Assembly (NCBI GenBank): GCA_002007465.1
Contig: LNAC01001219.1
Location: 210,661-274,660 of the forward strand
Length of the DNA: 64,000 nt
Source of the DNA: Ailurus styani
Lineage: Eukaryota > Chordata > Mammalia > Carnivora > Ailuridae
Direction of reading: 5' to 3'
This document shows positions 4,355 through 24,335 of this stretch, in pieces; position 1 is the stretch's first letter; every line of letters begins with the position of its first letter. The position numbers were made by a program, and so were the translations under genes. The notes under the pieces were generated by a model that saw only the letters and a program-made list of their open reading frames with translations, had not been told where the DNA came from and did not search any database.

Positions 4355-4375
4355 CACTGTCTCGATCAAGTATTG
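4355..4375 (+). CDS. TSBP1: TSBP1 microexon, ALSRSSI
   Basis: The acceptor 'ttattttcttttag' precedes 21 nt and the donor is 'gtaagttcc'. With an incoming G the exon reads A-L-S-R-S-S-I and leaves G for the next codon. Human TSBP1 has LSRSSIAL at the equivalent place, and the next matched exon here (8131) supplies A-L, giving the same join. This is the most 5' recognised exon in the window. Confidence 0.85.
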
Positions 4376-4592
4376 GTAAGTTCCTTCACTTTTCTCCAAC
4401 TCAATTCAAAGTATCCCTAGGTTTGAATGGCAACAATAGAGGAGATGTCAAATCCTCTATCTCCCTGAGCCACAACTGACACTCAGAGGTTGATGCTCCC
4501 AGGGGTTCCCTCTTCTGATACTCCCCAAAATGAAAAACAACAATAAAAAAAATGCCAGACAACCCCATAAACATTTTGGTGCTTCTTTTTAG

Positions 4593-4604
4593 GAGAACAA
4601 AGAG
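4593..4604 (+). CDS. TSBP1: Possible 12-nt cassette microexon, GEQR
   Basis: The acceptor 'gcttctttttag' is followed by 12 nt and the donor 'gtaagttcc'. In the shared phase it reads G-E-Q-R. The sequence after the donor, including 'tttcttaattctaa', resembles that after the exon at 13337, as expected of a duplicated exon-intron unit. Human TSBP1 as I recall it joins LSRSSI directly to AL, so this would be an optional or lineage-specific exon, or a cryptic one. At 12 nt it would be very small to recognise. Confidence 0.4.
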
Positions 4605-5304
4605 GTAAGTTCCTTTTATATTTCTTAATTCTAATTCCCTTTGGTATATCACAGACCTGGGGGTCATACCTTAACTCTGCCTAGCCTTGTCCCTCATCTT
4701 TTCTTCCTTCTCTATAATCAAGCATTTTACCTGAAGTTTATGAGAGCTCTGGAAAATGAAAAGTCTACTGAGTATGAATAAAGAGAAGATTCAAGTGGTT
4801 TTAGCTGGCTATGATGGTTTCAGCAAAACAAAATATCTTCTTTCACGCAGAAGCAGGAGGAAGGAAGAAGGTGGTCAAAAGGGCAGGGAATGAGAGTAAA
4901 GGGGACAGTTGTAATTAAATAAGCCAGGTTTGTTGAGTCCATATTTACAGATATTGTAGATAAGAAATTGAACTCAAGGGTATTATCTAAGTTACCTAAA
5001 GGCACATAGTTCATAAAAGGTAAAACTGAGGTTCTACACACTGAGCTTTTGATTAAATCCTGTGCTTGTCCAACTATCCCCAGGACACCATTAAAATTTA
5101 ATTTTTCAATTTAAAGTATCTTCTTGAAATGAAATTTAGGACATTATGCATATGTAAAAAATATTACTTCAATTTTTAATATGTAATCTAAAAATGCAAA
5201 AAATGTGAATTAATCTAAATCTCAAAATTATTTTGCTGGTCTAATACTGACATAACTGTATCTGATGAATAAGATCTTTTTATTACATAGACATCTAATA
5301 TGTA

Positions 5305-5344
5305 TATGTAAGATATAGATATAGGTATATCTATATCTTACATA
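5305..5344. repeat. Perfect inverted repeat, 18-bp arms, 4-nt loop
   Basis: The left arm 'tatgtaagatatagatat' (5305-5322) and right arm 'atatctatatcttacata' (5327-5344) are exact reverse complements around the loop 'aggt'. The sequence is AT-rich and intronic. It could form a hairpin in RNA or a cruciform in DNA. Confidence 0.9.
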
Positions 5345-5581
5345 ATGACTTGGGAAAACTATCAAGCTCAATATTTTTTTACTGTTATAATCAAAACAGG
5401 TTTTATTTAGTTTTGCTTTGTTTTCATCCAATTAAGTCATAGAAAGGATAACTTACCACAGGAGCAAAGTAAAATATCTTCAGGTTGACATGCGTTAAGT
5501 AATCAACTCAGATCTTTAATTTCTCCTGCAATATTTCAAGGCCCTGTGGTACATGAATTTTTAATTAAAAAAATTGTTCAG

Positions 5582-5783
5582 GGCGCCTGGGTGGCTCAGT
5601 GGGTTAATGCCTCTGCTTTCAGCTCAGGTCATGATCTCAGGGTCCTGGGATCGAGCCCCGCATCGGGCTCCCTGCTCAGCGGGGAGCCTGCTTCCCCCTC
5701 TCTCTCTCTGCCTGCCTCTCTGCCTCCTTGTGATCTCTCTCCCTCTGTGAAATAAATAAATAAAATCTTTAAAAAAAATAAAT
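5582..5783 (+). mobile_element. SINEC, young, with 14-bp target duplication
   Basis: The body is close to the consensus and ends in 'aaataaataaataaaatctt'. The flanking repeat 'aaaaaattgttcag' is present at 5568-5581 and 5784-5797, a perfect target-site duplication that shows a recent L1-driven insertion in the sense direction of TSBP1. Confidence 0.95.
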
Positions 5784-6339
5784 AAAAAATTGTTCAGAAG
5801 GCTGCAAGAGACATAGTACTTTAAAGGACAATTGAGCTTGTTAAAACAAAATATTTGGAGAAGTTAAAAATATAGGGGAATCCGCTGATGTGAATTCCAG
5901 ACGGCATGGTGTACAGGATTTTAGAGTGTAAGAAAGAAAATCAGATTAGGAGTTACACTAATCATTATGATAATATGCTCCTTAAGATGAGAATTATCTT
6001 CTGATGGTGAATAAGCTAAATGAATATGTGACACATATTGGGATTAATCTCAGAGGAAGGTAAGTAATTCGTTATTATATATAGTATTTAGCTGAAAGAT
6101 GCATGGGACCATTCACCCCTGAAGTTCAATATACTGTGTGGTCCTAGAGGATGAATGAAGCCCTCTTGAGAGGTCATCCTCAGAGACAGCTCAGTGGACT
6201 ATGGCAACTTGGGGAAGGGCTCTCAAACCGGAGCACAAAGGGCTTGATTCTATTATTTCTTTGAAAATCTTAGAAGACTATAGTTCCTTTGTCCCACACA
6301 GGTGTATATAAGTATACATAGATAAGGACTGCAATTTGA

Positions 6340-6545
6340 AACAATATTATAATAATATATATGAAGTATATGTATTACACCTTCATAGCAATCCTATGAA
6401 GTAGATATTACCATAAATTTTGTATTTAAAATGAACACTCTGAGGCACAAAAAATTAAATTACTCGTGCAAGGTCACACAGCTAGTAAGTAGAGGAACTA
6501 GGATTCAAATCCAAGCATTCTAGCATCTGAACACCCACTGTACCT
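6340..6545 (+). repeat. MIR relic
   Basis: The ordered MIR phrases 'caatcctatgaagtagatatta', 'ctctgaggcacaaa', 'gcaaggtcacacagctagtaag' and 'aggattcaaatcca' are present. The 'gtaag' inside this repeat is part of the MIR core and is not treated as a splice donor. Confidence 0.85.
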
Positions 6546-7542
6546 CATGAAGATTAATCAGGACCCCCTTTCTAAAAAGAGTTCCATTAGAATCATAAGC
6601 TTTTTACACTATTAATCCAAACTCTTGTGGATTTTTGCTGTTCTTCCTCAGTGTCAACTCCAGGAACAGTATTTAAGTCTCTTTTCTATTTCTCAATTCA
6701 GGAAAGAGACATGTGAGCAAGCAAGAGGTAAAAGAAAAGGAGTACATAGGACAACTAAAGAAAGTTTAACTAAGACTTACGCCTTCCACATTCCCTGAAG
6801 TTTCAACCTTTACAAAGAAGACGTAAATGACCTCCCTGTTCACCACCAGTCCTCCATATCTTTCTGGGCCTCTGTCCCGGCACCAAAGCACAGGATCCTT
6901 CCACTATCTGTGACCAAATCACCGGGGGTGGGGGGGTGGAGACCTTCTTCCTGAAGCTTCTCTTCAAAGGGGATTAACTCTGATGCCTTTAAAGAGCTGA
7001 CCTCATGAATTTATCTGTGTGTCCATTCAGCACAGTTTATAAGGAAATTGAGCATGTTTCTTTTTGTTTCTCTGCCAAGAATCCTTGGTATCTGGGAACT
7101 TTGTTCTTCCTGTCCACCCTTTCCCAGGCAGGCCCTAAATTTAGAATGTCAGTCTTTTTGCTTCCCCATTATCCTAGATTTTATTAGCTAAGGCTAAAAG
7201 GCTCAGGAATACCGGACTTCAGTTTGTGGATTTAGACTAAATGAATCATAAAAGTTGAACTTAACAGAGCATTGTTAAATCCTGTTTTTTTAGAGATTGG
7301 TTAAATAAGGTTCCAAAAAGATGATGGAAATGATCTAACATAAAACTTTACACAGGAACTTAACCTCCAACATAAGGCAAATAAGACAAATGATCAGCCT
7401 TCTGCCACTGAATATAGTGGGGTTCATGCTATAGTAGTTTACATATTACTAATACAGTTATGATGTAATACTAAAAGTTCCAAAAACTCCCTATTATTTA
7501 GGTTATTTCATAAAAGGAACACTCCAGAGAGTAATAAAAAGA

Positions 7543-7577
<35 letters not shown>

Positions 7578-8130
7578 CAGTTGATATGTATGAAAGAAGT
7601 TAATTTACTTTTTAAAGGAATATTCCAGAAAGAACAGAAAGAGAAAACTGTATGTGGTACAGAGGAAAGTGCACTGAACTTTGAATCAGAAAGATTGGAT
7701 GTGAAAACTGCATATATTTTTTCGCATACTCAGGCACAGACCTTCCTCTCTCTCCTCCTCAGTCTTTTTTTATAAAATTGGAACTTTTGAAACATTGTCT
7801 TTCTTCAGTTCTTGAAGCTATTACTTTATGGAGAGGAGATTCCCCAAACTGAGAAGAGGAAAGAAAGAAAGAGGAAGGACTGGCAAATAGGGGAAAGGAA
7901 GGGTGCTGAATGAAATCAGAATGTTGAAAATACAGTAAACCTGGAGACTCCCCTGATAATTTCACTCATGGGTAGTGTTCAGGAGGGAGGAAGATCTGAG
8001 ATCCAAGTGTGGTAACCCATGTGCCTACTGGGGAATGGAGGGTACAGTTTCTGGAAAGACTTCTGGGAAATGGGTGGATTATTTAAACCATTAACTCTAA
8101 ACTGATTTGAATATTGTTACTGTTCTTTAG
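6546..8130. other. Intron, no gene seen
   Basis: Apart from a (GA)n run at about 7540-7575, I see no recognisable repeat and no microexon with paired splice signals. The short frames here, such as 7581-7775 and 7759-7965 on the other strand, lack any family resemblance. Confidence 0.5.
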
Positions 8131-8151
8131 CATTACTGCAAGGATCCATGA
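8131..8151 (+). CDS. TSBP1: TSBP1 microexon, ALLQGSM
   Basis: The acceptor 'actgttctttag' and donor 'gtaagtttt' bracket 21 nt reading A-L-L-Q-G-S-M with an incoming G, leaving A. Human TSBP1 has ALPQGSM in this position; the join to the next exon makes S, as in human. Confidence 0.85.
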   Translation, partial: HYCKDP

Positions 8152-8770
8152 GTAAGTTTTTCTTCTTCTTTCAAAATCTGGTATCATAGGACTCCCACAC
8201 AAGGCAGAGGACGTCTGCCTGTCTTATCTGGGGAGATATGCTATGTCAGAGTGAGAGCGCTTGAGGTTCATCATTCTCTACCTTCTCCTTCATTAGTTAT
8301 CTTACCTACACCATGCTCACCTGTCTCACCTTTCTCCTTAAGACAATGACACAAACCCCTTCTTGCTTTCAAGCAAATTCCTGCTTTCATGTCCTGTCAT
8401 GGGACCTCATCTCCCAGCCCCACCTTCTCTTCAGCAGCCATAGCTTCTCTTTTTCTGTATCTTTGTATTTTTCTCTTCCATTAACTCCCTCTCCTTAAAC
8501 TATAGAACAGATTTGGTTTTCTTCCATTCCAATAGGTCCTCCCTGGACTCTGTGTTCCTTTCTAACTATGTCACCCTTCCAACCCCACAAAGAAGGAAAT
8601 TATGCTATTTACTTTGTGCACTTAGGAATAAGTTATTGTCTGCCCCATTATTGAAAATATGCATTATTTCTCCACGAATTGTGAGTGGTATAATAAGAAC
8701 TATTAAAAACCACTTTAAAAAATAAGTTTTCTTAAAAAAAATGGGCAGAAGAAAAAAATAAGTTTTCTTG

Positions 8771-8969
8771 TGGGATGCCTGTGTGGCTCAGTGGGTTAAG
8801 CCTCTGCCTTCGACTCAGGTCATGATCTCAGGGTCTTGGGATTGGGCCCTGCATCAGGCTCTCTGCTCAGTGGGGAGCCTGCTTCCCCCCTCTCTCTCTG
8901 CCTACTTGTGATCTCTCTCTCTCTGTAAAATAAATAAATAAAATCTCTAAAATAATAAAAATAAATAAA
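8771..8969 (+). mobile_element. SINEC, sense
   Basis: The element has head 'gggatgcctgtgtggctcag', full body and 'aaataaataaaatctctaaa' tail. The flanks share an 'aaaataagttt.ctt' repeat (about 8755 and 8967), a slightly diverged target duplication. Confidence 0.9.
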
Positions 8970-10700
8970 AATAAGTTTGCTTATTAATGTATTATAAATA
9001 TACAGGGAGACTGTTACAGATGAAGGCTCTGGAGCCAGGTTGCCTGGAGTTGTATGCCAGCTCCCTATTTACTGTTTCTTTGAACATGGGCAAGTTATTT
9101 AATTTCTCATTAAGCTGTTACAATTTCAACTACCAGTTGAAAAACTAACAGAAAAGAACAGAAAAGTGAAGGAATATAGAAGACATGAATAGAGAAAGAA
9201 GAAAATTGAGGTGATAAGGCTTAAATCAGTCTACTGAAACTGATTTCCATTTATTGCCAAAGCAAAATGAACACATTTTCTAAACAAAGGGAAGAAAGAG
9301 AGAGGAATGAAGGGCAGAAAAGTAAGGAATTAGGGGAAATGACACAAAAAATTTTAAAAATTTATAAAGAGATAATCCAGGTTGACAGATTTTTTTTCTT
9401 CTAAGCTATGTGCTTCTGATAAAATTTTTCATATTAAATATTATATTTTTGGTCACACAATGAGTAAAATTACTTCTTGCTCAAAGATCATGATTTCATG
9501 ATGATTTCATGATGATTTTCTCATGTCCCAAGAGTTGCTACTAATTGATCAGAATTAGCCCATTAACTCAAATATATTTGTCATGCCTGATAAGGGGTCA
9601 GTATTCTTAAATCTTAAATATATAGATGCTGTTTTTTATAAATTATCTTTATTTGGTGGTGGAAATGGCAGTATGTTACCTTAGTCTATAGCATATAGAA
9701 AAGGTGGAATCTCTTCCCAAGTGCTGAGATCCTATCATTTCTGTGAAAAGCTACTATTTTCCCCAAACACAACAAACTAGCAAACAAAAACAAAGTCATA
9801 AATATACAAGTAAAAACTATAATCATTTTAAAGAAATAAGTTGCAAATTTTTCAACTCACTAAAAGCTTTCTTACTAAATGCAATTTTTTAAAATAATAC
9901 ATCAGCACTTGAAGACTGTTCAACAGAGAAATAAACCTACATAAGGAAAAAAGATTTGAACAGGTAAAAGAAGAAAGAGTGGGGAGGAAAGCAATAGAGA
10001 AGAATTTCAGCGAAAATCTCCAGAACAGGAAAACGAAAGTCCAAAGAAGGTTCTAAAACTTCAAATCATAATTTCACACATAAACAAAACCTTTGAAATT
10101 CCATGGGAAAATTAATTCATCTCATACATAAACTTGTTTCAGTAAAGAGGTCTTGACATCTTAAAATAAGATAGGTTCCTCTCAAGGAAGAAGCCGTGGT
10201 TCTCCACTGCTGCCAATCTCACTGCAACATCAACGGGTATAACTAAGGAACTGAGGTAACTAAGGAATACAAAAGGATTCTTTTTTTTTTTCAAAGGGTA
10301 AAAGCACACAGATCAGCAAACCAACACAACACAATGAAGTGCTCATGAAAATGCCCTGTCACCTGCATTCAGAACTTTCCAAATGACAATAAGAGGGGAA
10401 AATAGAGAAAATAGAAAAGAAGTAAACTAAAGCTGAATACTTTAAACACAGTGAAAACTTCCTACTTTGCAAAAGAGTTTCATTCCTTTGTAGTCACTGA
10501 ATATATCTTTCCATAACAATTCTGATAGAACTTACTAGCTTTCCTATCCATTATTTTTCTTGATTTTTCACTATAGCCATGCCTCTAAGAAAGAAGGTAT
10601 AATTTCCATTTTAAAGATAAGAAAAGTAATGTTTCAAAAGTTTAGTAACTTATGTAGTCATAAAACTAGAGAGTAGTGAAGCTAGGGACTCTCTAGTCTT
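8970..10700. other. Intron, no gene seen
   Basis: AT-rich intronic DNA with a purine-rich zone at 9120-9340 and another near 9960-10030. From about 10580 to 10700 the order of phrases resembles a very diverged MIR. No paired splice signals around a short frame were found. Confidence 0.45.
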
Positions 10701-10710
10701 GGATGTTTGT

Positions 10711-10892
10711 TTGTTTGAGAGAGAGAGAGCATGTAGGAGAGAACGGGGAGGGGCAGCAGGAGAAGGAGAGAGAATCTTAAGCAGGCTCCACACTCAACCC
10801 ATCACAGGGTTTGATCTCACAATCCTGAGGACATGACCTGAGCCAAAATTAAGAGTTGGAAGCTTAACCATCTGAGCCACCCAAAGGCTCCA
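10711..10892 (-). mobile_element. SINEC, antisense, older
   Basis: Read on the complement, it has the SINE head ('gagccacccaaaggctcc' here is the reversed start), the tRNA-like body and the CT-rich tail seen here as GA-rich DNA. Many differences from the consensus suggest an older copy. Confidence 0.85.
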
Positions 10893-11071
10893 AGTCTTGG
10901 ATATTTAATCTGAAGACTATTTGTACCACACACGTGGGGAGGAAGGAATGGGATTGCCTACACATCATGCTCTCTGAAAGTCTAATGAAAGTCTAGATGA
11001 CATTATAGTTGTCAATTTTTTTTTCTTAAACAACATTTATCTTTCATAGTTCTTGTCATTTTTCATCATAG

Positions 11072-11110
11072 GTGAAACAAAAGCCCTCAAAGCAACTCCA
11101 GAACCTTTAT
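11072..11110 (+). CDS. TSBP1: TSBP1 exon, SETKALKATPEPL (39 nt)
   Basis: The acceptor 'tttttcatcatag' and donor 'gtaagtttc' bound 39 nt, the longest exon in the set. With incoming A it reads S-E-T-K-A-L-K-A-T-P-E-P-L, leaving T. It lines up with human TSBP1 S-I-K-C-L-Q-T-T-E-E-P-P, sharing the spacing of K, L, T and E-P. Confidence 0.8.
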
Positions 11111-11668
11111 GTAAGTTTCTCTTATTTTTCAACTCTGTTTTTTTGTTTGCTTTTATCTTCTACAAAGTGCCTACTATTGGGGGGCTAGAGTGGAGGTTAA
11201 GTAGGCACATAAGGGAGGAGGAAAGGAGACATCTCACTATTTTTACTGGTCTTTTTTTTTCCTTTACCAGTGTGAGGAATTTGTAGCTGATTTTAGGATC
11301 CCTCTCAGTGACAATTTTCTTATTTAGTAAAGTGGAAACTCTGCTAATAAAATTAATTTATAGGTGAAAGGAAAAATCATATGATTGGATGAAGTTATTT
11401 ACTAAAAACAAACAAAATTTTAGAAGGATTGGACAGTAGGAAAATAGTAAAAACTGAGAACAAGAACAATAATTGCAGGAAATATGATCTTAAGAGTCTC
11501 CTTAAGGAAAAAAGCGGTGGGGGGTGGGGGTGGGGAATCCAGGCTTACCTTCTTACTGCTTTCCATGTAAATGTAATAATGCAGTAAATGCTTGACCTGA
11601 AGTTCCCTGAAATGTACATCCTTCAGTCATGCTCTCTCCAGACTTATCTCTTTGTGTTTGTATTTTAG

Positions 11669-11689
11669 CTGGCTCTGCAGGACCCATAA
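11669..11689 (+). CDS. TSBP1: TSBP1 microexon, SGSAGPI
   Basis: The acceptor 'gtttgtattttag' and donor 'gtaagtttc' bracket 21 nt. With the T left by the previous exon it reads S-G-S-A-G-P-I. It is a close copy of the next exon (TGTIGPI) and of the exon at 14759 (PGATGPI), showing exon duplication. Human has S-R-T-A-G-A at the corresponding place. Confidence 0.75.
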   Translation: MALQDP

Positions 11690-12209
11690 GTAAGTTTCTT
11701 TCCTGTGCTTTAATTACCATGTGCCTTGCTTTACTACACTGTTAGAATATGTAAGACTCTCCTACTCGTGGATGTTTTTATTTCTTCCTGCACAAATTGT
11801 CAATTATTTTCTCTTTCTTTATTCCCTATTCTTATTTTAATAAGCTGGTAGCCTCTCTGAGGAAGTACTATTACTTTCAAGTTTCTCAAGTTCTTGAGAT
11901 TCAATAGGCAAGGGAAAAGTGTTAAGAATAAAAGTGTTAGAAAGGTAGCATGGTCCCTTGCTAGAAATCCCAGTCACACTCAGAGGAAGAGAGCAGCAAG
12001 TCCCAGCTCACTGACTGAGGGTCCCCTGCTATTACCAAAGAATAAATCTGAAAGAAGTATCCAGATAGCATCTTAATGACATTACAACAAACATCTCTGG
12101 CAGAAGCACTGGGAATGGGAAATGGGTGAGAGACAGTTGATACAGAAAAGAAAAAAAAATGGTAAATGGAAACAACGTCCTATACATCCTCTGAGATTTT
12201 ACCAGTCTC

Positions 12210-12365
12210 TTAATGGCCGGCTGCTTAAAGTGGGCCCAGGGATCTGTATTAGCAACACCTTGGAGTTTCTTGGCAATGAAGAATCTCCACCTAAGACACA
12301 CTAAATCAGAATTTGCATTTTTAAGAAGATCCCCAGGTGGCTTAGAACCATTATTAACAGGGTTT
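12210..12365 (+). repeat. MER5A-like hAT transposon relic
   Basis: Phrases 'ctaaatcagaatttgcattt' and 'aagatccccaggtgg' in order, preceded by 'gctgcttaaagtg', match the common MER5A element. It is old and diverged. The open frames over it are chance frames. Confidence 0.7.
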
Positions 12366-12693
12366 CAATCCTCTATAGCTAGAAAAGAAATAAAAATCTG
12401 AGTGCACTAGATTTAAGTTTAACACTCCTCCATCCCTTCAGATTTTCCGCAGTAAGAGTAGCCTTAAAGTCGATGGCAAGAAAAATGAAACTCACCAAGG
12501 TTTCATTCATTTCTTATCATATTTCTATCCATCAATGCTGAGGATGTTCCTAGGGCAGGGCCAACACTAAAGGATGAATTGAGGGTTAGAGCTCATGACA
12601 AATCACACGCTGAGTCTACTCCTCCTGGAGCATTTATACGCATGACAATCAAACTTAATCAAGAGTAAACACTGGGGAAGTGTCACTAAAGCA

Positions 12694-12811
12694 CACATAG
12701 CCCTAGAGGTACAGAGAGGTGTCCATGTGTATGGTGTTTGTAAAGGAGAAGGCACATAGCCCTAGAGGTACAGAGAGGTGTCCATGTGTATGGTGTTTGT
12801 AAAGGAGAAGG
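12694..12811 (+). repeat. Perfect 59-bp tandem duplication
   Basis: The 59 bases from 12694 to 12752, starting 'cacatagccctagaggta' and ending in 'ggagaagg', are repeated without change at 12753-12811. The identity indicates a very recent event or an assembly error. Confidence 0.95.
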
Positions 12812-13336
12812 CAGTTATTGCTAAGCATGTGGGTCTAGTGCCTCAAGCCCTTTATCAGCCAACTGGACCTATGAAAATCTTGAGCCATCTGAGGGTTCCT
12901 ATTTCCTTTTATGCTAAGATATTGCAGGCCAAGTTACTCTGATGAGTAAGAGAGTTGAGGTCACCCACAGGAGACAGAAATTCCCACTGCCTCCCTCAGA
13001 AGATGAGGTCACAGATTCTGGCTAAACAAGTTCAAAGTAGCCCAGCTGGAAGAAAAGCAATGGCCTTTGGAATCTACTGAGTTTCAGTGACCCATCAGGG
13101 AAGGAACCCTGACCACTGCATCCCTGCAGCTCCAGCTGGCAGATCCCAGTGTCACGGGGGTCCTCCACAGTGGAGAATGAAGAATAAAATTTATTTACTC
13201 TTCTGATGAAGTAGAAATGTTGTTCCCTGTGTTTGCATTTATGATGTTCTCCCAAAAATAATTTCAGTGGAAGCTGTAAATTTTCTGTGCCAAAGAACCT
13301 TTCTAATTAATCTGTCTTGCTTTTCTCATATTTTAG

Positions 13337-13357
13337 CTGGAACCATTGGACCCATAA
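13337..13357 (+). CDS. TSBP1: TSBP1 microexon, TGTIGPI
   Basis: The acceptor 'ctcatattttag' and donor 'gtgagttcc' (the only non-GTAAGT donor in the set) bound 21 nt. With incoming A it reads T-G-T-I-G-P-I, leaving A, which makes ATG at the next join. It is a paralogous copy of the exon at 11669. Confidence 0.75.
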   Translation: MEPLDP

Positions 13358-14131
13358 GTGAGTTCCTTTTCTGTTTCTTAATTCTAACACTCTTTGGTCT
13401 TCTGTGAGCTATGGGACTTCTCCTTATCCAAGCTCTTTCTATCTCCAGGCTTTCTCACCCATGCTACTTGATTGCATAATTGCATTTGAATTATTGATAC
13501 CTCCTGATGCTCAAGACAATAGAAAAGAACACCCTAAAACTATCACTGAGTTTAAGATAAGGGAAAGCAAAATCATTGATATCTAAAATAATATGGAATA
13601 TAAATAAATATTTAAAGCCAGAGGCAAATTCTCTTTACTATGATAAAAATAATTAAAATAACTATTTGTGGACTTTTCCTAAACTGAGCAAGTGCTACAA
13701 GAACAGGTGGTTCTAGGAGGAGGCAAAAGAATAAGCATGATAAACACAGAGGAGGAGGTGGTGATGAAAAAAAAAAAAAAAACCAAACTGACATCCCACC
13801 TACCCCAGAAGTGTCAGTCCTTTGAGAAAGCTGAGTGTTGGGCTGGGCAGAGAGGGAAAAGGAGGAGGAATGAAAGTGAAGGAAAGTTTGACAACATTTA
13901 ACCCCAGTTTTATATGTTCCCCTCTGCCATTGATTTCTTATTTAGGATGAATGCCAAATGACTTAATCTGGAGGGAGGGCTATGGGGCTTCTTTGCTAAA
14001 ATTATCTACTGATATGCAGTAGTAATTTCCCTCTGGTTGAGTTGCTTCACAGTTTTTTTAAAAAGAATATTGGTGGCATGAGCATTTTGTTAATATCAAA
14101 CCTGCTAATTTTCCTCTTCTTTGTATTTCAG

Positions 14132-14152
14132 TGCAATTCACAGCACCAATTC
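14132..14152 (+). CDS. TSBP1: TSBP1 microexon, MQFTAPI
   Basis: The acceptor 'cttctttgtatttcag' and donor 'gtaagtatc' bracket 21 nt. With incoming A it reads M-Q-F-T-A-P-I, the same seven residues as human TSBP1 in my memory of it, and leaves C so that the next codon is CCA (P), also as in human. Confidence 0.9.
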
Positions 14153-14758
14153 GTAAGTATCAAATTTGTTTCCCCACTCCGGTTTTTTAAATTTCTCACC
14201 CACAAAGTCTTAAGTACTGATCTGCCCTGTTTTCTTGATGCCATGTTTCTCAACTTCTCTAAAATTCCTATTACACAGTTTCCAAAGAAGCCATGCTTGA
14301 AGTAGAGAGACTGCAAAGCCCACGGGCTAACATAAGAAAATAGAAAAGGACCCTCTTAATAGCAGTCAAAATGCCCTGTTAGCAAAGTAAGGTTCACTTT
14401 TCAAATAACAGTAAGTCCCTAATGGGATGAGAGAATAAAGAGAGAGAAAAAAATTTTAAAGGAGGTATTATGAATTAGTATGGAATGAGTCTATCCTAAT
14501 CCTCTACAGGTTGCAAATAGTACTGAAAACAAGGGAAGGCCTCCATTCCTGGAAGTCCCCTATATTGTACAACATGGAGTCTGTCTGAGGATTGTCATGC
14601 AAACAACCCTTGATGTTCCTAGGGTTTCTATTTATGACACTCCCTCTAGAGTGAGGGTTGAAGAATGGTTATTTCCCTCACAGTGATGAAGCATGCTGAT
14701 TATCTCCCTCTCCCCCCCACCCCTTTCCCTCTTCTCTCTTTCCCTCTATGTTTCTCAG

Positions 14759-14779
14759 CAGGAGCTACGGGACCTATCA
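14759..14779 (+). CDS. TSBP1: TSBP1 microexon, PGATGPI
   Basis: A long CT tract (about 14701-14757) ends in 'tttctcag'; the donor is 'gtaagttta'. With incoming C the 21 nt read P-G-A-T-G-P-I, identical to the human heptad. The exon leaves A for the next codon (AAG, K). Confidence 0.9.
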
Positions 14780-15404
14780 GTAAGTTTACTGCCTGATTCT
14801 CCACTGTAGAGAATTCTAATTTCCTGCAGTATCTTAAGGATCCTTCCCCGGATTCTATGTTGAGATTTTGGTGGTTTAGGGGTCCACATTTTCTTGGTCT
14901 TTTTTGTTGTCTTCTCCCCACGATTTCAGTAAATCTTTAATGATAGTGTGGATGTACATTCCAGTGCCAAACACAAACTATGAAGTGGAAGATGAGCTCC
15001 TGAAGGTTTCCAATGGCTTATCAACATCACACAAAGGACTTTTAAAAACAGAATGAGCTAGACAGTAGTGAAATTATAGGGGAAAGGAAGAAAATTAAGT
15101 TTAAATGGAGAAGGATGTTTCCAACCCTCTACAGGGTTTTAAATGGGCCAAAAGGGTGACCTCTACTTAGTACCTTTGGTACTTAGCCTCTCAGTGGATC
15201 CATTACATAAGGAGGCTCTTATATGTATTAGATTGTCTTAGCATACATGAAGAAAGTTAACATCCCTACTACCCCACTGTAGCTGAGCCCAAGTTGAGTG
15301 GCACAGATCCTTACCAGGAAAAGCATGCAAATGAGAATTACAGGCTCCAAACCCCGAGAGCACCTACTGATTTCTTTTCTCTTTTCTTTTGTTTATTTTT
15401 CTAG

Positions 15405-15425
15405 AGCTCTCTCAAAAAACCATCG
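15405..15425 (+). CDS. TSBP1: TSBP1 microexon, KLSQKTI
   Basis: The acceptor 'gtttatttttctag' and donor 'gtaagtcac' bound 21 nt. With incoming A it reads K-L-S-Q-K-T-I, identical to human TSBP1, and leaves G (next codon GTG, V). Confidence 0.9.
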
Positions 15426-16094
15426 GTAAGTCACCTAACTCTCAATGTCGTTTGGTCCTTTTCAATGCTTAGAATGTCAGTTGATTTTTATTTCAAATGA
15501 TTCATGCCTATGGACTCTAGGATCAAGTGTTTCCATTGCCCCATTACCCCACTCAGAATTCTTAGAGGTTGGATTCACCCAGGTTCTGCAGTAAAAAGAT
15601 ATGAACTATGAAGCTGAAATACAAAGTGAAAGAATAACCCCCCCCCAGGAGTGGTCTTTTCTAAGTTCTATAATCTATCTTTTTAGAACAAACATGTAAT
15701 AAAGATTTAGAACACAACACCTAAACTTCTTGCTTACCCTGAAAATATTAGATTATGTTCAAAATAATGCAAATCCTCTTTTTTTTTTACTATCTAATTT
15801 CTCTGAAAAGTTCTCTCCAAGACAGTTAGGTTTAACTTTCACCAACTTCTAGCAACTTATCCTATTGTATTTTTCCATGGAAACATTATAAATAATGGTT
15901 AGGTTCCAAGATACAGTTGTCCATAATTACATATTTTAAAACTAAGAGCAAATAGTTATAGCTTCACACACTGGGTTATAGGATTCCTAACAAAAATTCA
16001 GAATTTTTGAAATTAGAAACCTAAAATAATATGCTTAAGGTTTCCCATATTTGCCCGACAGAATGAATATAATATAATCTGTACCTAGTCATTC

Positions 16095-16199
16095 TTTGTG
16101 TGATTCCTTCATGAATTTCCATGTCATCCTTGCACACAAGTCATGATAATCTTCTCTGTATTGTTCCAATTTTAATATATGTACTGCTGAAGTGAACAC
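16095..16199 (-). pseudogene. U6 snRNA pseudogene
   Basis: Read on the complement it starts 'gtgttcacttcagcagtaca' and carries 'aaaattggaacaatacagag', 'aagatta', 'aaggatgacatg' and 'aaattcatgaag', which follow the order of U6 snRNA. Several substitutions and a damaged 3' end indicate a processed, non-functional copy. L1-mobilised U6 copies of this sort are common in mammalian genomes. Confidence 0.85.
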
Positions 16200-17522
16200 T
16201 CCTTGTATGACTCTTACAATGACTCACCATTTTTCTAACTCTCCCATGCATTATTTTGTTGGCCCTACACAACATTTCAGTGGTGGTGGGTAAAGCAGAT
16301 ATTATACCCATCTTGAGAGATGGAAAAATTGAGGTTCAGAAGTCATTCCTCCAAAAAATAAGGGAAGGAATATAGTTAATGAAGTTAAAACTGAAGTTGT
16401 GCTGACTCTTGAATTCTTTCCACTACCATTTTGAGCGTTCTAAAACGTTATTAGTTAGGAATATGATGAACTTGTAACATCAAAAATAGTGGACCAAAAG
16501 GCTTATGGGGAGAGGAAGTGAGAGAAAATGCAATACAAGGAGTAACAGAGAATAAAGATATGTGTTAAAAAGAGAAAAATCGAGAAATTTAAAAGGAACA
16601 AAGTAGGAAGTTAAAGTCAGGAGATTGAGTTAGAAACAGGAGAAGAAAAAAAGTAAATGAATATAAATAAAACTGAGAAAGAGATGTAAAAGAAGTTTAC
16701 AAAAGACTCACAAATTAAAAAAGGAAAAACAGTAAGAAAATACAGGAAAACTAAGAAAACAAAATAATATTTGAAATAATTATCTGTCTAAAGATGTAGT
16801 GGCTTATACCAGAAGGCAGGTGTCCTAGGATATCTACTTCAGGATCAAGGGCATTTTTTTTAAATAGAGACAGTCAAAGCAAATATTAAAGTACTTTTGA
16901 AAAATATCTAAATTTCTAGCTTGTCTAGAACTCATGGCCCAGGATATCCACAACTAATAATCCACCTTCTAGCTTTTTACATGGAAAAAAAAATTCAGAG
17001 GTAAGGGTTTTGGGACTTATGGGTTAGAACTGGGATATTTCCCATCGTGAGTGCCATGAAGTAAGGAGCTATGGAGAAGAAAGACAATGCAATGCCCACT
17101 GAAAGGAGAGGGTCTTTTTAGATTCAATTAACCATGCAGACTCACAAGATGATCTCAGCCTTCACCGGGCTACTCAGAGGGACTTAAGGGAGGAAGCACA
17201 GCTTGCCACTAGGACAGCATCAACCATCTCTCTTCTATGACAGTAGTCCTTGATGTGGTCTATGCAAGTGTCTACAGTGTCACCCAGGAACTATTCTCTT
17301 TGGCCTCCCATAGGCTGCATATAGGAACTGCTTGGAATTAGAAGTCCCAGGAGCCAAAATATCCTAAAGAACTCCAAAACATAACCTGCAGGGATCCTAT
17401 AAGGAACATGCCCAAATACATGGTCACTATACTCAGGGAAGCCCAAAGATATGGCTTTCTAACAGGTATTTACAGTTCTCCCAGTTCACATGCAGTTTAC
17501 CAAGCAAGAATTATTCTTCCTT

Positions 17523-17752
17523 TCATTTTTTTATTTTTTTTAATTTTTATTATTTCTTTCTTTATTATTTATTTATTTTAGAGAGAGAGTGTGAGTGAGT
17601 AGGGAAGAGGGGAGGGAGAGAGAGAGAGTCTTAATCAGACTCTGTTCTGAGCATGAAGCCCAACGTGGGGCTCGATACCATGACCCTGACATCATGACCA
17701 GAGCTGAAATCAAGAGTCAGACGCTTAACTGACTGAACTACCCAGGTGCCCT
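17523..17752 (-). mobile_element. SINEC, antisense, older
   Basis: The + strand shows T-rich tail, GA-rich tract and then the reversed body ending 'ctacccaggtgccc'. Divergence from consensus suggests an older copy. Confidence 0.9.
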
Positions 17753-18319
17753 AAGGATCATTCTTAAGTTAAAGGAATGTTGTCAGTTAAGATACAAGGT
17801 TTAATCAGAACTAGAAAATCAACTGAAGACCAAATTCTCATTAAAAACTGAAGGTTTTGTTGACTCTTTCCCAGACACTCAAGCTAATCAAAGCAGTAGT
17901 CAGTAAGCTGGAAACTGTGAGAAGGCTATATCCTTACCTCTTACCTTTATGCTTACCCTAAAGCATATTAGTTGTTCAGAAGTATTTTAGTATGAGGGTG
18001 GTCCTTTAAAAAAGCCCTATCTTTTGTTACCAACAGGAAAGAAAAATATAATGTTTATATCTTTAATGTCTTTAACTTCTCTTAGGTTGACAGTGATTCT
18101 AGAGAGATACTCATCTCAGGCTGAGTTGCAATATATGCTAAATATCTCTTTTCCTATATAGTTATCATACCTGGATTAGTTCTCCCTACTGTTCTTACTA
18201 TTATCACTTCTTTTCCCTTACTCTGCCTCCCAAATCCCCAACCCTAAAATAAAATTAACGAAAAATTTATTCTTCATCCAAACAGTCATACTAATATGCC
18301 AATTTTTATTTCTTTTTAG

Positions 18320-18340
18320 TGCAAACTCCAGGACCTATTG
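18320..18340 (+). CDS. TSBP1: TSBP1 microexon, VQTPGPI
   Basis: The acceptor 'tttatttctttttag' and donor 'gtaagtttcc' bracket 21 nt. With incoming G it reads V-Q-T-P-G-P-I, identical to the human heptad that follows KLSQKTI, and it leaves G. Confidence 0.9.
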
Positions 18341-18823
18341 GTAAGTTTCCTATATATACATAAACTCATATATAGTACTCAAATTCATAAAGGTAGCATA
18401 ATATTTTTCTAATAATTATTAGTTTGTCCGTATACATTAGAAGAATGTTCCAAAGCAAAGATGCAATAGAGAGAATCTGGGAGAGGACAAAAGAAGGATG
18501 GCCAGAGAGTGAAAAAAAGTGACAGGAGAGAAAAAAGATGGGGAAATTGAAGGGAAAGGAATACAATAAAGATTTCACTTCAAACACCTGTAGGAACAAA
18601 AGGCAAGCATGAAATGTTTCTCCCTCCAACTAATTACAAGTCTCCTAGGGGAAGATCTGATTCTTATGGTGAGGATACAGTCCAGTAAAAATATTTAATC
18701 CTGAGGATTGAGATTTAGTAATTCTGGGAAGCTGTTTAACTGTTCTCCTTTGGAAAACATCAGTATTATGTGTGTTTATCATGTTCAACAACCACAGTAA
18801 TTTATGTTTGTTTCTATTTTTAG

Positions 18824-18844
18824 TGCAATATACTGGGTCCAGTG
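18824..18844 (+). CDS. TSBP1: TSBP1 microexon, VQYTGSS
   Basis: The acceptor 'tttctatttttag' and donor 'gtaagtccc' bound 21 nt reading V-Q-Y-T-G-S-S with incoming G. Human has VQYPGSN here. It resembles the preceding exon and is probably its duplicate. In human the next residues are AGPP; here five extra candidate exons intervene before that exon. Confidence 0.85.
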
Positions 18845-19490: not shown

Positions 19491-20925
19491 CTTCAGGGAA
19501 TACGATATGATGGTAGGTGGGCTATAATCATAGGAACTGGCAGATACATCAGACAACTAAAAACTATAAGTGAAAGAGAGTGAAGGGTAAGCTCATATTG
19601 TGACTAGCTAGGGCAAAATTAGTGTCAAATTCTAGGGTGTCAAAACAAACCAAACCTCAGGACATTGTAAATTCTGAGCCTGGAAATTAAGTAATAGCAT
19701 TCCAAGGTTTAAGCCAAACAAGAGGACATTATCAGAAGGCAAGTCAGATGTACTCAAACATTCCTTCAACTAGCTGATCTCTTGTATCAGAAACTGAGCT
19801 GAGGCTTGGGGATGAAGTCATGAACACTACGTCAAAAAACATATGATGTGCTCTATGCTGGCTAACTGAACACAATAAAAAATAATAAAAATATATTTCC
19901 AAAATAAAGTCATGAATTAGAGAGAAAGATTTGGTTAATCTCTGGTGCTATGAAGTTTATGGTCCTACAAGATATCTTGTGGAAAGGAACTCAAAACATG
20001 GAAAGGGCACACAGTCTCCCACACAATAATACTATGATCACTAAAACTGGATGCTGCCTACCCTAAATGCTGGTTCTAAATACTTCCTTTGTGAAGAAAT
20101 ATAAGCCATCACCTGTCGACTATTCTCTTGATTCAGGGTCTCCTTTCTCAGTACTCTTAATTATCACCAAGACTTACAGCTTGGAGTTCTCATTAATTCT
20201 TATAAGGGAGAAATCACAAACCAGCTCACCTCAGAGGTTCTCACTGGGGCTAAATGAAGGTGTTTCATCTGACCCAAAGTCCCCAAGTAGCTACCATGTG
20301 CCTGAGAATCTATATGGGTACATGGATTCCCTTTCCCTTTTCTTTTCTGTTTAATTCCCTCTCCCCTATGTGTAAACACTAAAAACATACAATCATGTAA
20401 AAATGGAAATTATACTGTTACATTTATTCCTTCCTAGCTTTCTCCTAAATTACAGGTGATTTGAAGAAAATGCAAAATGCACTGATTTTTTTTTTTGACA
20501 AAAATGAGTGCTTCAAATGGGACTAGTTAAAAAAAGGAGGGGGAGTGGGAAGAAAACATTTCAAATCAACTAAAAGGTTAGGTAGGGAAAAGAATAAATG
20601 AAAATGACAATGACAAACATACACAGAGGTACAAGTTTAAGATATTATGAACCTCTAGAAATTTCAAGCATTTCCCACCCTGAAAAGGGATGGAAAGGAA
20701 GGAGGACAGCACGCTCCTGCCCCAGACCAGCAGAAGACCTGAGGATGCGAAGCATAGGGCTAGGACCTTAAGACCAGATGCCGCACTGAGCTAACAGGCA
20801 GGTTTTAGAACTCCCTGCACCCTCCCTGTAGTTACCCTCTTCAAGCCCATCATGGGAGAACTGAGTTCTCTTCGTTCTACACACACTGATTTCTCCCTTT
20901 TCTTTCCCTTCCATTTTTCTGCCAG
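18845..20925. other. Intron, no gene seen
   Basis: Other than the AC microsatellite and a short tandem similarity at 19140-19220 (two 'gtaagtaaaat' phrases), nothing recognisable. The 'gtaag' phrases there lack an upstream pyrimidine tract and AG at exon distance. Confidence 0.5.
19437..19489. repeat. (AC)n microsatellite
   Basis: An uninterrupted run of about 26 AC units. Lengths this great are usually polymorphic in mammals. Confidence 0.95.
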
Positions 20926-20946
20926 GTGAAACTTCAGAAATGACTA
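20926..20946 (+). CDS. TSBP1: TSBP1-type microexon, GETSEMT
   Basis: A long pyrimidine tract ends 'tttttctgccag', then 21 nt and donor 'gtaagttcc'. With incoming G it reads G-E-T-S-E-M-T. I know no equivalent in the human isoform I remember. Its splice signals, length and phase are those of its neighbours, so it is probably a real exon of this lineage or of another isoform. Confidence 0.6.
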
Positions 20947-21552
20947 GTAAGTTCCATACTTGTTCTTATACAGTAGTTGCCTTTGGCCTCCTGCAGGGTC
21001 TGTAATCCTTTTGCTTCTGCCTTGTGGGTGTAGACATTCATGTTTCTCCACCTCTTGCTTATTCCACTACCTGGCTGCACTCCCACTCAAGAAATGAATG
21101 AATGGAGAGGAATACAAACCCCACTTAACAACCCAAAAAACTTAATATGGATATACTATATTACATAAAAATATCAGGAAACTGTCAACAAGGGTGGGGG
21201 AGGACATTTGTATGAATGAATGAAAGCTTTCACGGAAGAGCAGAAACAGGGAGTAGAAAAGTAAAAGCAGCAGTTTAAATTACCAATCTCCTGTAGAATT
21301 TGAAACAGTTACCTCTCACTGCAAAAAGGGGAGAGATAACTCTCTTTCCTGAAGCCTCTTAGACTAAGCAGGAGGCAGAATCCTCCAAGGCATGATGGCA
21401 GCTGTGTTCTCCAGCACAGTGCACAACAACATCTATAAGGGTTTGATGGTCCCTCTGTGAACATTTCTGATACTCCCTCTCAGAAAACGAGCAAGAAAAC
21501 TAATTCCTCTTTCACCAGTCTTTCTACACCTACTTCTCTTTTTGTTTTTCAG

Positions 21553-21567
21553 CTGCCAGATCCTCTT
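21553..21567 (+). CDS. TSBP1: TSBP1-type microexon, TARSS (15 nt)
   Basis: The acceptor 'tctttttgtttttcag' and donor 'gtaagtttc' bound 15 nt. With incoming A it reads T-A-R-S-S and leaves T. It keeps the phase-1 design. No human counterpart is known to me. Confidence 0.55.
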
Positions 21568-21884
21568 GTAAGTTTCACTATCTCCCTTCATGATGGAACT
21601 CAATTATCTCCAGCACTAACAGATCTACTTGAACAAAAATTTATCCATCCATATTGGGATAGCAATAGTTTAAAGCTCCTATTTCCCTGACCCTTATTTT
21701 TCCATTACTCAGAATTCCACTAGGTTATTAATAAGTTTCAAAAAAGTTCACCGAGTCACATAAAAATTAAGGAGCAGAGAAAAAAGTTTCTCCATGGTTC
21801 TAAAGATTGGCAGGGACTTTCCATACAGAAGGAGAAAAAATGAACAGGAAAAATAAAGATACAGATGATATTTCTGTTTTCCAG

Positions 21885-21908
21885 CTGGGTCATCTATATG
21901 AGCAATTA
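21885..21908 (+). pseudogene. TSBP1: TSBP1-type microexon with in-frame TGA
   Basis: The acceptor 'atttctgttttccag' and donor 'gtaagttg' are intact around 24 nt, but in the shared phase the codons are S-G-S-S-I followed by TGA (21899-21901). The intron after it is visibly related to that after the exon at 21553. Either the exon is dead and skipped, or it works as a poison exon that ends the reading frame when included. Confidence 0.6.
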
Positions 21909-22181
21909 GTAAGTTGTTTCTTTGCTGTGCACTTAAAGTCCAGCAATGTCTACTGAAAGTTGAGCTCTAATACACGGACTTGAAACAATTTCTTAGCTTT
22001 CGCTTCTCCATTAACCTGAATTCCACCAGCTGATTGTAAGCTTTCTGCAAAGTTCAAATACTCCTGATCAGAAAAACTTTGAGAGTAGTTATATCACTCT
22101 AGAAAATTTACCAGTAGAAAAAAATGACTCGGAGAGTAAATGAGCAGGGGGCAATAAGAAATCTCTCTGCTTATTTTTCAG

Positions 22182-22205
22182 TAGGATCAACTCCTCATAC
22201 AAACA
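22182..22205 (+). CDS. TSBP1: TSBP1-type microexon, (L/I)GSTPHTN
   Basis: The acceptor 'ctgcttatttttcag' and donor 'gtaagtttg' bound 24 nt. The first residue depends on the upstream exon: L after the exon at 21553, I after the one at 21885; then G-S-T-P-H-T-N. The opening GGATCA is shared, in shifted register, with the exons at 21885 and 23061. Confidence 0.55.
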
Positions 22206-22418
22206 GTAAGTTTGTGTATTCATTTAATTCTCTGCCATGGACTCAACTGGTTTTTAGTGGGGTTGAAGAGTCTTTATCTGGCCATGTTGGTATGCAAAGG
22301 GCTTGAGGTACCTCGTGGCCCCTTGCTATTTCATTATCAAAGTCCCTCTGCGTGATTCATGATGCAGTAGAAAGTTCTAACAGTACTGATTTACAGAAAC
22401 AGGGGAGAAAAAAGTTTT

Positions 22419-22629
22419 TTATTTTTTTTTAAAGATTTTTTTTTATTTATTCATTTGACACAGAGAGAGAGATTACAAGTAGGCAGAGAGGCAGGCAGAG
22501 AGAGAGGAGAGGAGGAAGCAGGCTCCCTGCTGAGCAGAGAGCCCGATGTGGGCCTCGATCCCAGGACCCTGGGATCATGACCTGAGCCGAAAGCAGCGGC
22601 TTTAACCCACTGAGCCACCCAGGCGCCCA
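22419..22629 (-). mobile_element. SINEC, antisense, with target duplication
   Basis: A near-consensus antisense copy, with reversed head 'gagccacccaggcgccc'. 'agaaaaaagtttt' flanks it at 22406-22418 and 22630-22642. Its antisense T-rich tail provides a pyrimidine tract in the gene's sense direction. Confidence 0.95.
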
Positions 22630-23060
22630 AGAAAAAAGTTTTGCTTAGTTATAGAGACCACCAACAAAAGGCTGCCTACAGAAAAGGAAAAAAATTATGG
22701 AAGAGAAAGGAGGGGATCAGAAGTTTCTAAACAGTTTTTCATTTGGACCTCCTGCCCTACCCAGTCTGTTTTCCACATTTGAATTCCAAGACACCTGAGG
22801 AAAATTTCCCTGGCCATTTGGGACTTTAGAGGCTTGAAGTTCCTATTTCTTATACATCCTGTATTCAAACTACCGATAATTCTCCTAGCTTTTTAATAAT
22901 TTTATGAGAAAAATCAAATTCCATGATTTACATAAAAAATAAAGATCAGAAGCGAAGGTTTCTCAGCGGTTAAAAATGACATGTTACAAGGGACAAAACA
23001 AATTGAATGGGGAAGAAAGGAAAAGGAGGTAACAATTTTCTCTGTTCTGTTTTCCACTAG

Positions 23061-23081
23061 GATCAGTTCCACCTGCCCTCA
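23061..23081 (+). CDS. TSBP1: TSBP1-type microexon, RSVPPAL
   Basis: The acceptor 'ctgttttccactag' and donor 'gtaagtcc' bound 21 nt. With incoming A it reads R-S-V-P-P-A-L and leaves A. The Pro-rich content fits the neighbouring AGPPPSMPR exon. No human counterpart is recalled. Confidence 0.6.
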
Positions 23082-23377
23082 GTAAGTCCTTCCATGTTTC
23101 CTCCACTGTGGAGTCCTTAGCTTTTTTCCCTGGCTATGCTGGGATTTCAGCTCATGGGCACATACTTCCCTAACCGCTTGCCTTTCCATGGCCAAATTCC
23201 ATGGTTATTAATGTTTTTTTGAAAGTTCAATTCTTGCTCATTTACACTGAAAGTAAATAAAGACCAAAGGGAACATTTTCCCTATTGTTATAATGACTTA
23301 ATGAGAAAGATCTAAACTGAGAGGGGAAAAAAAAGTGAAAGAGAAAAGGCTTGCAAAAATACTTCTTTGTCTTTCAG

Positions 23378-23404
23378 CTGGTCCCCCACCTTCAATGCCC
23401 AGAG
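23378..23404 (+). CDS. TSBP1: TSBP1 microexon, AGPPPSMPR (27 nt)
   Basis: The acceptor 'cttctttgtctttcag' and donor 'gtaagttc' bound 27 nt. When joined to the exon at 18824 (ends G) it reads A-G-P-P-P-S-M-P-R, close to human AGPPSAPR; joined to 23061 (ends A) the first residue would be T. It leaves G, giving the human-like R-G join. Confidence 0.85.
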
Positions 23405-23599
23405 GTAAGTTCAGTCTGTTTGTTTTTTGTGGGTTTTTTGTTTGTTTTTTACTGTTTTCTGTTGTTGTTGTCCTCTACACAACCTGCAGAACTGTTTCTG
23501 CCCTACTCATTTCTAACTCCTGTGCAGCAGCCTGAGACTCTTAGCTCTCACCTTCCTTTACCTTCTGCTCATCCTGTGAAGTAAACTTACATTTAATTT

Positions 23600-23760
23600 C
23601 AAACATTTGTTTAATTTGCATCTCCTCAGTGATAAGAACTATATAGATGCTTTAACTACATTATATCCCATTTAATCCTTGGAGTAAATCATTTGACCTC
23701 TTTTAAGGGTTAAGAAACCAAGGCCACATACTTGCCCAGGAACACAGTTTCCTGAACCAT
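23600..23760 (+). repeat. MIR-like relic
   Basis: Phrases 'atcccatttaatcctt', 'ggttaagaaaccaaggcc' and 'cttgcccaggaacaca' follow MIR order with heavy divergence. Confidence 0.55.
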
Positions 23761-23873
23761 AGTTTGAACAAAGAGCCATGTGACTACCAAGCTTCTTCCT
23801 CACACAAATATTCTTCCCTAGAAGGAAACTTGTTCCTTTCAAATAATTACTCACTGATATCTTTTTTTTTAAG

Positions 23874-23894
23874 GTGTGCCCCTGCCCCCCATAA
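23874..23894 (+). CDS. TSBP1: TSBP1 microexon, GVPLPPI
   Basis: The acceptor 'atcttttttttttaag' and donor 'gtaagtatt' bound 21 nt. With incoming G it reads G-V-P-L-P-P-I, in line with human G-P-P-M-A-P-I. It leaves A. Confidence 0.8.
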   Translation: MCPCPP

Positions 23895-24314
23895 GTAAGT
23901 ATTCTATTTGTCTACTATGGTTCTCATGTCTTCAAAGTCCAAGGGACTTCATTCTGTTAAAATGATCTGAGTTTTTCATTGCTCTCTTGCTTCCTTACTA
24001 CCCAGATTTCCCTATATTATAATTTAGGAATATACTGATTAAAAGAAAAGAAGTAAAGTAGCATTTGTCAATAATAACAGCAAAAACCCCTGAAAAATAT
24101 AAACAACAAAGGTAGGCAAAATTTTTGAGAGACAAACAGTAAGTCCAAAATAATGTTCAAATGGAGAGAGAATTTCAAGGTTCCCTGAAAGTATGCTTTC
24201 TTCTTATGTCTACCTAAGCCCTCCCCTCAGAGACATCAGTGGAAAAATGTTAGATAATACTATGTTTTTTCTATTTAAGAAAACTTACATGATTTCTTTT
24301 TGCTTATTTTTTAG

Positions 24315-24335
24315 TGATTTCACAGAGAACCTCAA
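24315..24335 (+). CDS. TSBP1: TSBP1 microexon, MISQRTS
   Basis: The acceptor 'ttgcttattttttag' and donor 'gtaagttc' bound 21 nt. With incoming A it reads M-I-S-Q-R-T-S, matching human I-I-S-Q-R-T-A. This is the last exon before the 24.6-kb intron. Confidence 0.85.

Follow-up and report, generated by a model that had tools for sequence, protein, structure and literature searches.

A ladder of very short exons on an Ailurus styani contig, read as the probable middle of TSBP1

The question raised by this locus is whether a run of very short candidate exons in Ailurus styani DNA belongs to a gene and, if so, to which one. The stretch under study (hereafter the window) is 64,000 nucleotides (nt) of contig LNAC01001219.1, numbered from its first letter; negative positions lie before its start and positions above 64000 past its end. 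A first-pass annotation, made from the letters alone, had proposed nineteen such exons, most of 21 nt, between 4355 and 24335 and had assigned them to the gene TSBP1 (C6orf10). It gave this range, the count and four peptides, with no coordinates for single exons, and we equated the nineteen exons found here with its nineteen.

The exon ladder and its gene

By scanning the window with a plain splice rule (at least 8 of 12 pyrimidines before [CTA]AG, then 9–45 nt, then GTRAGT, with length and frame unfiltered), we found 27 matches on the forward strand, 22 of them in 1–24400. Twenty-four of the 27 are divisible by three and 14 are 21 nt long. On the reverse strand of the whole window the same rule gave nine matches, one of 21 nt, and 200 first-order Markov simulations gave a mean of 8.8 matches (maximum 18), with a mean of 0.23 in the 21-nt class (maximum 2). 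The ladder accounts for 19 of the 22 matches in 1–24400 and spans 4355–24335 on the forward strand, exactly the number of exons that had been proposed. Thirteen of these measure 21 nt, bearing out the claim that most do, and the remainder 12, 15, 24, 24, 27 and 39 nt; all nineteen are multiples of three in this unfiltered scan, and 18 are open in phase 1, in which a codon is split after its first base. The ladder is real and far beyond chance. The other matches in 1–24400, one at 14366–14410 that contains a stop and two overlapping ones at 17582, are not rungs, as we call the exons of the ladder. The plain rule took the place of a log-odds splice model with strict cut-offs, which recovered only 2 of the 19 exons; its penalty on exons with a last base other than G is the apparent cause.

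Searching proteins with the joined rung peptides returned six entries, all named TSBP1 or C6orf10, from bats, rodents and rabbit. As a longer query we assembled a 31-exon spliced model from the window and its flanks, open in frame over 550 codons; it omits 4593–4604 (later matched in relatives), a 9-nt candidate at −5591..−5583 (no match seen) and 21885–21908. Aligned to TSBP1 proteins, the check that the first-pass annotation had proposed, this translation matched ferret TSBP1 best (E 2.3e-251), followed by European mink, otter, jaguar, walrus, dog and cat; with mustelids as best matches, the assignment to a carnivore also holds. There were 151 matches at E ≤ 1e-10, and among the 120 listed, 119 carry TSBP1- or C6orf10-type names and one is an uncharacterised sheep protein. 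The best 120 of the 151, together with the six entries of the first search, formed our set of relatives' proteins. A Pfam search at E ≤ 1 assigned no family to three TSBP1 proteins.

The TSBP1 proteins of ferret, European mink, otter and dog were mapped back to the exons of the contig, with only candidate exons of a length divisible by three admitted, and they gave the same rungs in the same order, in line with the gene named at first pass (Table 1). Eighteen of the 19 ladder rungs are matched in at least one relative, in order, usually at 5/6 or 6/6 residues; the rungs of cat and human fit the ladder too. The core rungs MQFTAPI-PGATGPI-KLSQKTI-VQTPGPI are present in order, with many residues invariant or nearly so in 13 mammalian proteins. 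Comparison with seven human database proteins showed nine clear counterparts (ALSRSSI, ALPQGSM, MQFTAPI, PGATGPI, KLSQKTI, VQTPGPI, VQYPGSN, GPPMAPI and IISQRTA), rising to ten or eleven if AGPPSAPR and VRSHPHTI are counted, which agrees within uncertainty with the at least ten human matches claimed earlier. Human rows for SGSAGPI, TGTIGPI and TARSS, which were other rungs or unrelated stretches, were not counted, and some spurious placements of the human chain (e.g. at 12709 and 26443) were not used.

Judging from these alignments, we read this part of the window, with a probability of about 0.93, as the middle of the TSBP1 gene of an arctoid carnivore and the tiny exons as its ladder, whose splice sites would be used in this species. 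Two features of the ladder as first drawn did not survive: the coding reading of 21885–21908, which holds an in-frame stop, and the end at 24335, beyond which further rungs follow. The expectation that gene finders miss exons this small is likewise not supported, as database models of ferret, dog and cat contain them, with dog isoform numbers up to X111.

Table 1. Rungs of the ladder in window coordinates. Fractions over 26 or 16 count isoform models; other fractions count matching residues. "Mapping" denotes back-mapping of relatives' proteins to the contig.
Rung	Position	Strand	Evidence and remarks
TSBP1 (A)LSRSSI, 21 nt	4355..4375	+	6/6 in ferret, mink, otter, dog
TSBP1 GEQR, 12 nt	4593..4604	+	3/3 in ferret, mink, otter, dog; 26/26 dog models, 0/16 cat models
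TSBP1 ALLQGSM, 21 nt	8131..8151	+	dog 5/6; walrus ALLQGSM; not in mapped ferret, mink, otter proteins
TSBP1 xETKALKATPEPL, 39 nt	11072..11110	+	8/12 in ferret, mink, otter, dog
TSBP1 SGSAGPI, 21 nt	11669..11689	+	mapping; resembles 13337 including flanks (blastn 78% over 55 bp)
TSBP1 TGTIGPI, 21 nt	13337..13357	+	donor GTGAGT; mapping; blastn with 11669
TSBP1 MQFTAPI, 21 nt, conserved core	14132..14152	+	mapping; 13-protein columns
TSBP1 PGATGPI, 21 nt	14759..14779	+	mapping; second acceptor 3 nt on
TSBP1 KLSQKTI, 21 nt, conserved core	15405..15425	+	mapping; 13-protein columns
TSBP1 VQTPGPI, 21 nt, conserved core	18320..18340	+	mapping; 13-protein columns
TSBP1 VQYTGSS, 21 nt	18824..18844	+	5/6 in ferret, mink, otter, dog
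TSBP1 GETSEMT, 21 nt, cassette	20926..20946	+	mapping; 13/26 dog models
TSBP1 TARSS, 15 nt, cassette	21553..21567	+	by eye, not mapping: dog TTRSS, ferret/otter TTGSS; 11/26 dog models
Stop-bearing GSSI*AI, 24 nt	21885..21908	+	good splice sites, in-frame TGA
TSBP1 LGSTPHTN, 24 nt	22182..22205	+	CAG-TAG double acceptor; 5/7 to 6/7 in relatives
TSBP1 (x)SVPPAL, 21 nt	23061..23081	+	mapping
TSBP1 TGPPPSMPR, 27 nt, cassette	23378..23404	+	mapping; 13/26 dog models
TSBP1 GVPLPPI, 21 nt	23874..23894	+	mapping
TSBP1 MISQRTS, 21 nt, cassette	24315..24335	+	mapping; 20/26 dog models
Apparently decayed TSBP1 (T)RPEKSK	47919..47938, edges approximate	+	acceptor AAAG; donor place GTTCCA
TSBP1 TRQEEP, 18 nt, past 24335	48942..48959	+	splice rule; mapping
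TSBP1 THAAVPM, 21 nt, past 24335	50598..50618	+	4/6 in ferret, mink, dog
TSBP1 ITPVPI, 18 nt, past 24335	51553..51570	+	mapping
TSBP1 VIGPVAA, 21 nt, past 24335	55150..55170	+	splice rule; mapping

Outside the ladder range, four further rungs lie in the window at 48.9–55.2 kb and one past its end at 67013. Eight modelled exons precede the window, the first of them a transmembrane exon, EITLAVILTLLGLAILAILLTRW, at −9951..−9865, which agrees at 28/28 residues with ferret, mink, otter and dog; two modelled exons follow the window. The last exon (71403–72304) is open to a TAA over about 900 coding nt and encodes a lysine- and glutamate-rich (K/E-rich) tail with repeats of about 15 residues, identical to ferret at 233 of 298 positions. 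Over the first 120 residues of this exon, identity is 99/118 with ferret, 102/118 with otter, 97/115 with walrus and 87/120 with dog, and ferret and otter agree with each other at 113/120. The near-equal values for ferret, otter and walrus suggest an arctoid that belongs to neither Mustela nor Lontra. A single candidate, MAAL at −11704 (donor GTATGG), was found for the first coding exon, where relatives mostly read MAVL. In the 60 kb scanned with a loose pattern no other match was free of stops, and as about one or two such matches would be expected by chance on our estimate, only the likeness of MAAL to MAVL favours this candidate.

Other ends of the protein were also seen. The dog and cat TSBP1 proteins P0082 and P0087 carry a long lysine/aspartate-rich C-terminus in place of the usual last exon. 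This alternative C-terminus of dog X111 and the cat isoform had no match on the contig at E ≤ 0.05 and may therefore lie past the contig end, which comes 10,050 bp after the window. The C-terminus of rabbit TSBP1 isoform X38 has a match in the segment 15513–15639 (E 8.7e-13), which is broken by a stop and frame changes here; its counterpart in rabbit is probably an alternative last exon.

Cassette use and splice-site choice in relatives

The full model has 30 exons ahead of the last one, each of a length divisible by three and in phase 1, and skipping rungs of such lengths and of one phase therefore keeps the frame. To count their use we took 26 of 27 dog models and set P0104 aside, a protein that begins within the ladder. 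Rungs 4355 to 18824 occur in all 26 and rungs 50598, 51553 and 55150 in 22 each; counts for the four cassettes at 20926–24335 stand in Table 1, and the TRPEKSK rung is found in 11 of 26. Between the VQY rung and the last exon, the 26 models yield 26 different strings, or 20 once one allele difference is merged. The rungs TPSANSL, GEQR, ALLQGSM and THAAVPM are absent from the 16 cat models.

Splice-site choice adds further variation. Double acceptors lie at 14759/14762, at 22182/22185 and 12 nt before the last exon, and both choices occur in relatives' models: the RATGPI form, made with acceptor 14762, is present in ferret X3 and dog X111, both forms of 22182/22185 are found among dog models, and the last exon begins as VIFPGCMD in 20 and as SCMDAEL in 4 of the 26. 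At its acceptor, rung 23061 lacks one residue that ferret, mink, otter and dog have.

Two introns next to rungs can be read in frame. An M. lutreola TSBP1 model treats the intron before rung 22182 as coding (MSRRVNEQGAIRN...; window 22124–22205), and here too that frame stays open from 22124, MTRRVNEQGAIRNLSAYFSVGSTPHTN. The segment 4282–4375, which covers rung 4355 and the sequence ahead of it with its pyrimidine tract, likewise keeps an open frame; it is similar to the second hydrophobic segment in a human isoform (LILVYFLLALSRSSI compared with a human stretch ending ILALSRSSI, 11/15).

The mouse ortholog, BC051142, has been described with 25 RNA isoforms, or 103 under looser settings, two of them confirmed by reverse-transcription polymerase chain reaction (PMC10953240). 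No isoform is recorded there in somatic testis cells or spermatogonia, isoforms rise through spermatogenesis, and the function of the ortholog is stated as unknown (PMC10953240). The reference transcript of human C6orf10 is given as 26 exons over 80 kb (PMC6607989).

Damaged rungs and rival readings

Several observations weigh against the TSBP1 reading or limit it. Rung 21885–21908 carries an in-frame TGA in the common phase. At about 47919–47938 stands the TRPEKSK/TRPEKPK rung known from dog, cat and ferret, with GTTCCA where GTRAGT is expected; a short DNA pattern for RPEKPK gave no match, and a peptide-level scan then located this donor-less copy. A search of 55171–71400 gave no VDSSGKI exon, which probably falls within the run of N at 64001–66500, and the candidate for the first coding exon is a single one, MAAL at −11704. 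The count of 30 frame-neutral exons out of 30 is partly by construction, because the scans kept only such candidates, and a rung of a length not divisible by three would have been missed. Finally, evidence for skipping and for exon junctions comes from relatives, whose isoforms are largely computed models, with some of the dog differences being alleles of two assemblies.

Chance resemblance to splice signals has next to no probability as the source of the short exons. Simulations do give about nine such matches per 64 kb, but the 21-nt class, expected at 0.23, was found 14 times, and the peptides of 18 of the 19 rungs stand in order in annotated proteins, on which ground we reject chance for those 18; rung 21885–21908 alone could be chance or a dead copy. 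The stop in this rung and the lost donor consensus of another, together with one exon in a gap or missing and a first exon known as a candidate, speak for a TSBP1 pseudogene decaying in this species. This we hold to be very unlikely, as the 900-nt last exon, the transmembrane exon and the other modelled rungs are all open in one frame, both damaged rungs are frame-neutral when skipped, and the core rungs fit the invariant or nearly invariant columns of the 13 mammalian proteins.

The TGA might also be put to use, rung 21885–21908 being a regulated poison exon whose inclusion switches the transcript off. Its good splice sites, frame-neutral length and upstream flanks like those of 22182 and 23061 suit such a role. 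However, a GSSIxAI-like stretch occurs in none of the relatives' proteins, including 101 with the VQY rung that closely precedes 21885–21908, although a poison exon could scarcely be expected to show in protein records, and a dead duplicate accounts for the rung just as well; we consider the regulated exon unlikely. By the similarity of its flanks, 21885–21908 is possibly a sister copy of 22182 and 23061.

Origin, design and setting of the ladder

The flanks of the rungs resemble one another. Among the 253 pairs formed by 23 rungs, 23 downstream and 18 upstream flank pairs score above the 99th percentile of shuffles (2.5 expected), whereas exon flanks compared with random windows pass the threshold in 7 of 920 downstream and 20 of 920 upstream cases. 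By blastn, 11661–11715 matches 13329–13383 at 78% and 4605–4645 matches 13358–13398 at 85%. A recent 113-bp copy (96%) before the window covers the last 14 of the 21 nt of the TPSANSL exon and its donor; this duplication, at L004:4074–4183 and L004:6812–6924 of a flank piece, possibly provides an extra 12-nt rung. Such likenesses suggest that the copying of exon-plus-intron modules likely built the ladder. Three points weaken the comparison of flanks: random window pairs reach a 99th percentile of 331–332, above every exon-flank pair (maximum 280), because copies of short interspersed nuclear elements shared between windows match each other; upstream, flank pairs average 103.5, no higher than random pairs at 103.6 (shuffled 95.3); and some of the downstream score may come from pyrimidine blocks.

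Those blocks may themselves matter for splicing. Behind 23 donors, the pyrimidine fraction at +7..+36 is 0.70, compared with 0.49 in the background and 0.39 at 28 other GTRAGT sites, and such a pyrimidine-rich stretch would aid the recognition of exons this short. U-rich binders such as TIA1 act at elements of this kind.

The gene plan comprises a 5' exon encoding one membrane helix, a ladder of about 30 exons of 12–39 nt and a 3' K/E-rich repeat tail, with the ladder serving as a set of frame-neutral cassettes whose inclusion or skipping would alter the flexible, proline-rich linker that joins membrane anchor and charged tail. Under the positive-inside rule, the N-terminus would lie outside and the C-terminus inside. 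An AlphaFold model of the ferret protein places a helix at residues 2–40, with 549 of 598 residues below 50 in pLDDT (predicted local distance difference test), and the linker and tail are accordingly predicted to be unstructured; against this, the model was built on 13 sequences, which may account for part of the low confidence.

Upstream on the same strand, an open reading frame for a PRY-SPRY domain (L009:4194–4922) has butyrophilin subfamily 1 member A1-like proteins as its best named relatives, and a second, truncated copy of this kind lies at L006:1871–2146. A butyrophilin immunoglobulin (Ig) consensus gave two weak matches on the contig (E 0.07 and 0.12), both inside the window, and an Ig-like regular expression gave none in 20 flank pieces. 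BTNL2, which had been expected upstream, was not found on the contig by Ig consensus and PRY-SPRY searches, with no convincing Ig exons; the gene seen upstream is butyrophilin 1A1-like. In M. lutreola, TSBP1 and a butyrophilin 1A1-like protein are probably on one chromosome (both records 160,010,566 bases).

An Rfam search of the window found a U6 small nuclear RNA-like copy and nothing else; it lies at 16093–16199 on the reverse strand (68.7 bits), within the intron that separates rung 15405 from rung 18320, and is probably a retro-copy. Exact tandem copies at 63315–63630 (158 bp twice) and 12694–12813 (59 bp twice), and a repeated segment at 51100–51370 interrupted by N near 51289, may be assembly artefacts.

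Compared with TSBP1 (C6orf10; mouse BC051142) of ferret, European mink, otter, dog, cat and human, the gene read here has the same membrane helix, rung order and peptides, and shares the phase-1 joins and the K/E-rich repeat tail. It differs in the stop of 21885–21908, in the RPEKSK rung at 47919 without a donor consensus, in rung 23061 and, against ferret, at 65 of 298 aligned tail residues. Schistosome micro-exon genes likewise consist mostly of short symmetric coding exons skipped in many combinations, but they are parasite genes for an unrelated protein, secreted rather than membrane-anchored, and the likeness is one of analogy, not kinship. The neuronal microexon programme of vertebrates shares frame-neutral exons below 30 nt; it uses mostly single microexons per gene, under SRRM4 in neurons, in contrast to about 30 in one testis gene here. 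In the open-licence library searched, we found no paper linking TSBP1 or C6orf10 with the word microexon.

A tentative picture, which we consider possible and would not press, is that TSBP1 is a mammalian micro-exon gene, its ladder derived from copied modules, which makes a population of linker variants in maturing sperm cells, with central rungs fixed and flanking rungs gained, silenced or lost by lineage; the stop-bearing and donor-less rungs here suggest such loss.

Annotation of relatives already includes this gene with its small exons and numerous isoforms, which makes the find ordinary as a discovery: the gene is known and the new detail modest. TSBP1/C6orf10 is named in many genetic association papers. 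Exons of 12–39 nt, invisible as open frames, proved detectable from raw DNA, and a carnivore ladder with its fixed, cassette and dead rungs marked is a usable comparison for which rungs matter. The remaining interest lies in a well-marked example of a testis gene built from microexons.

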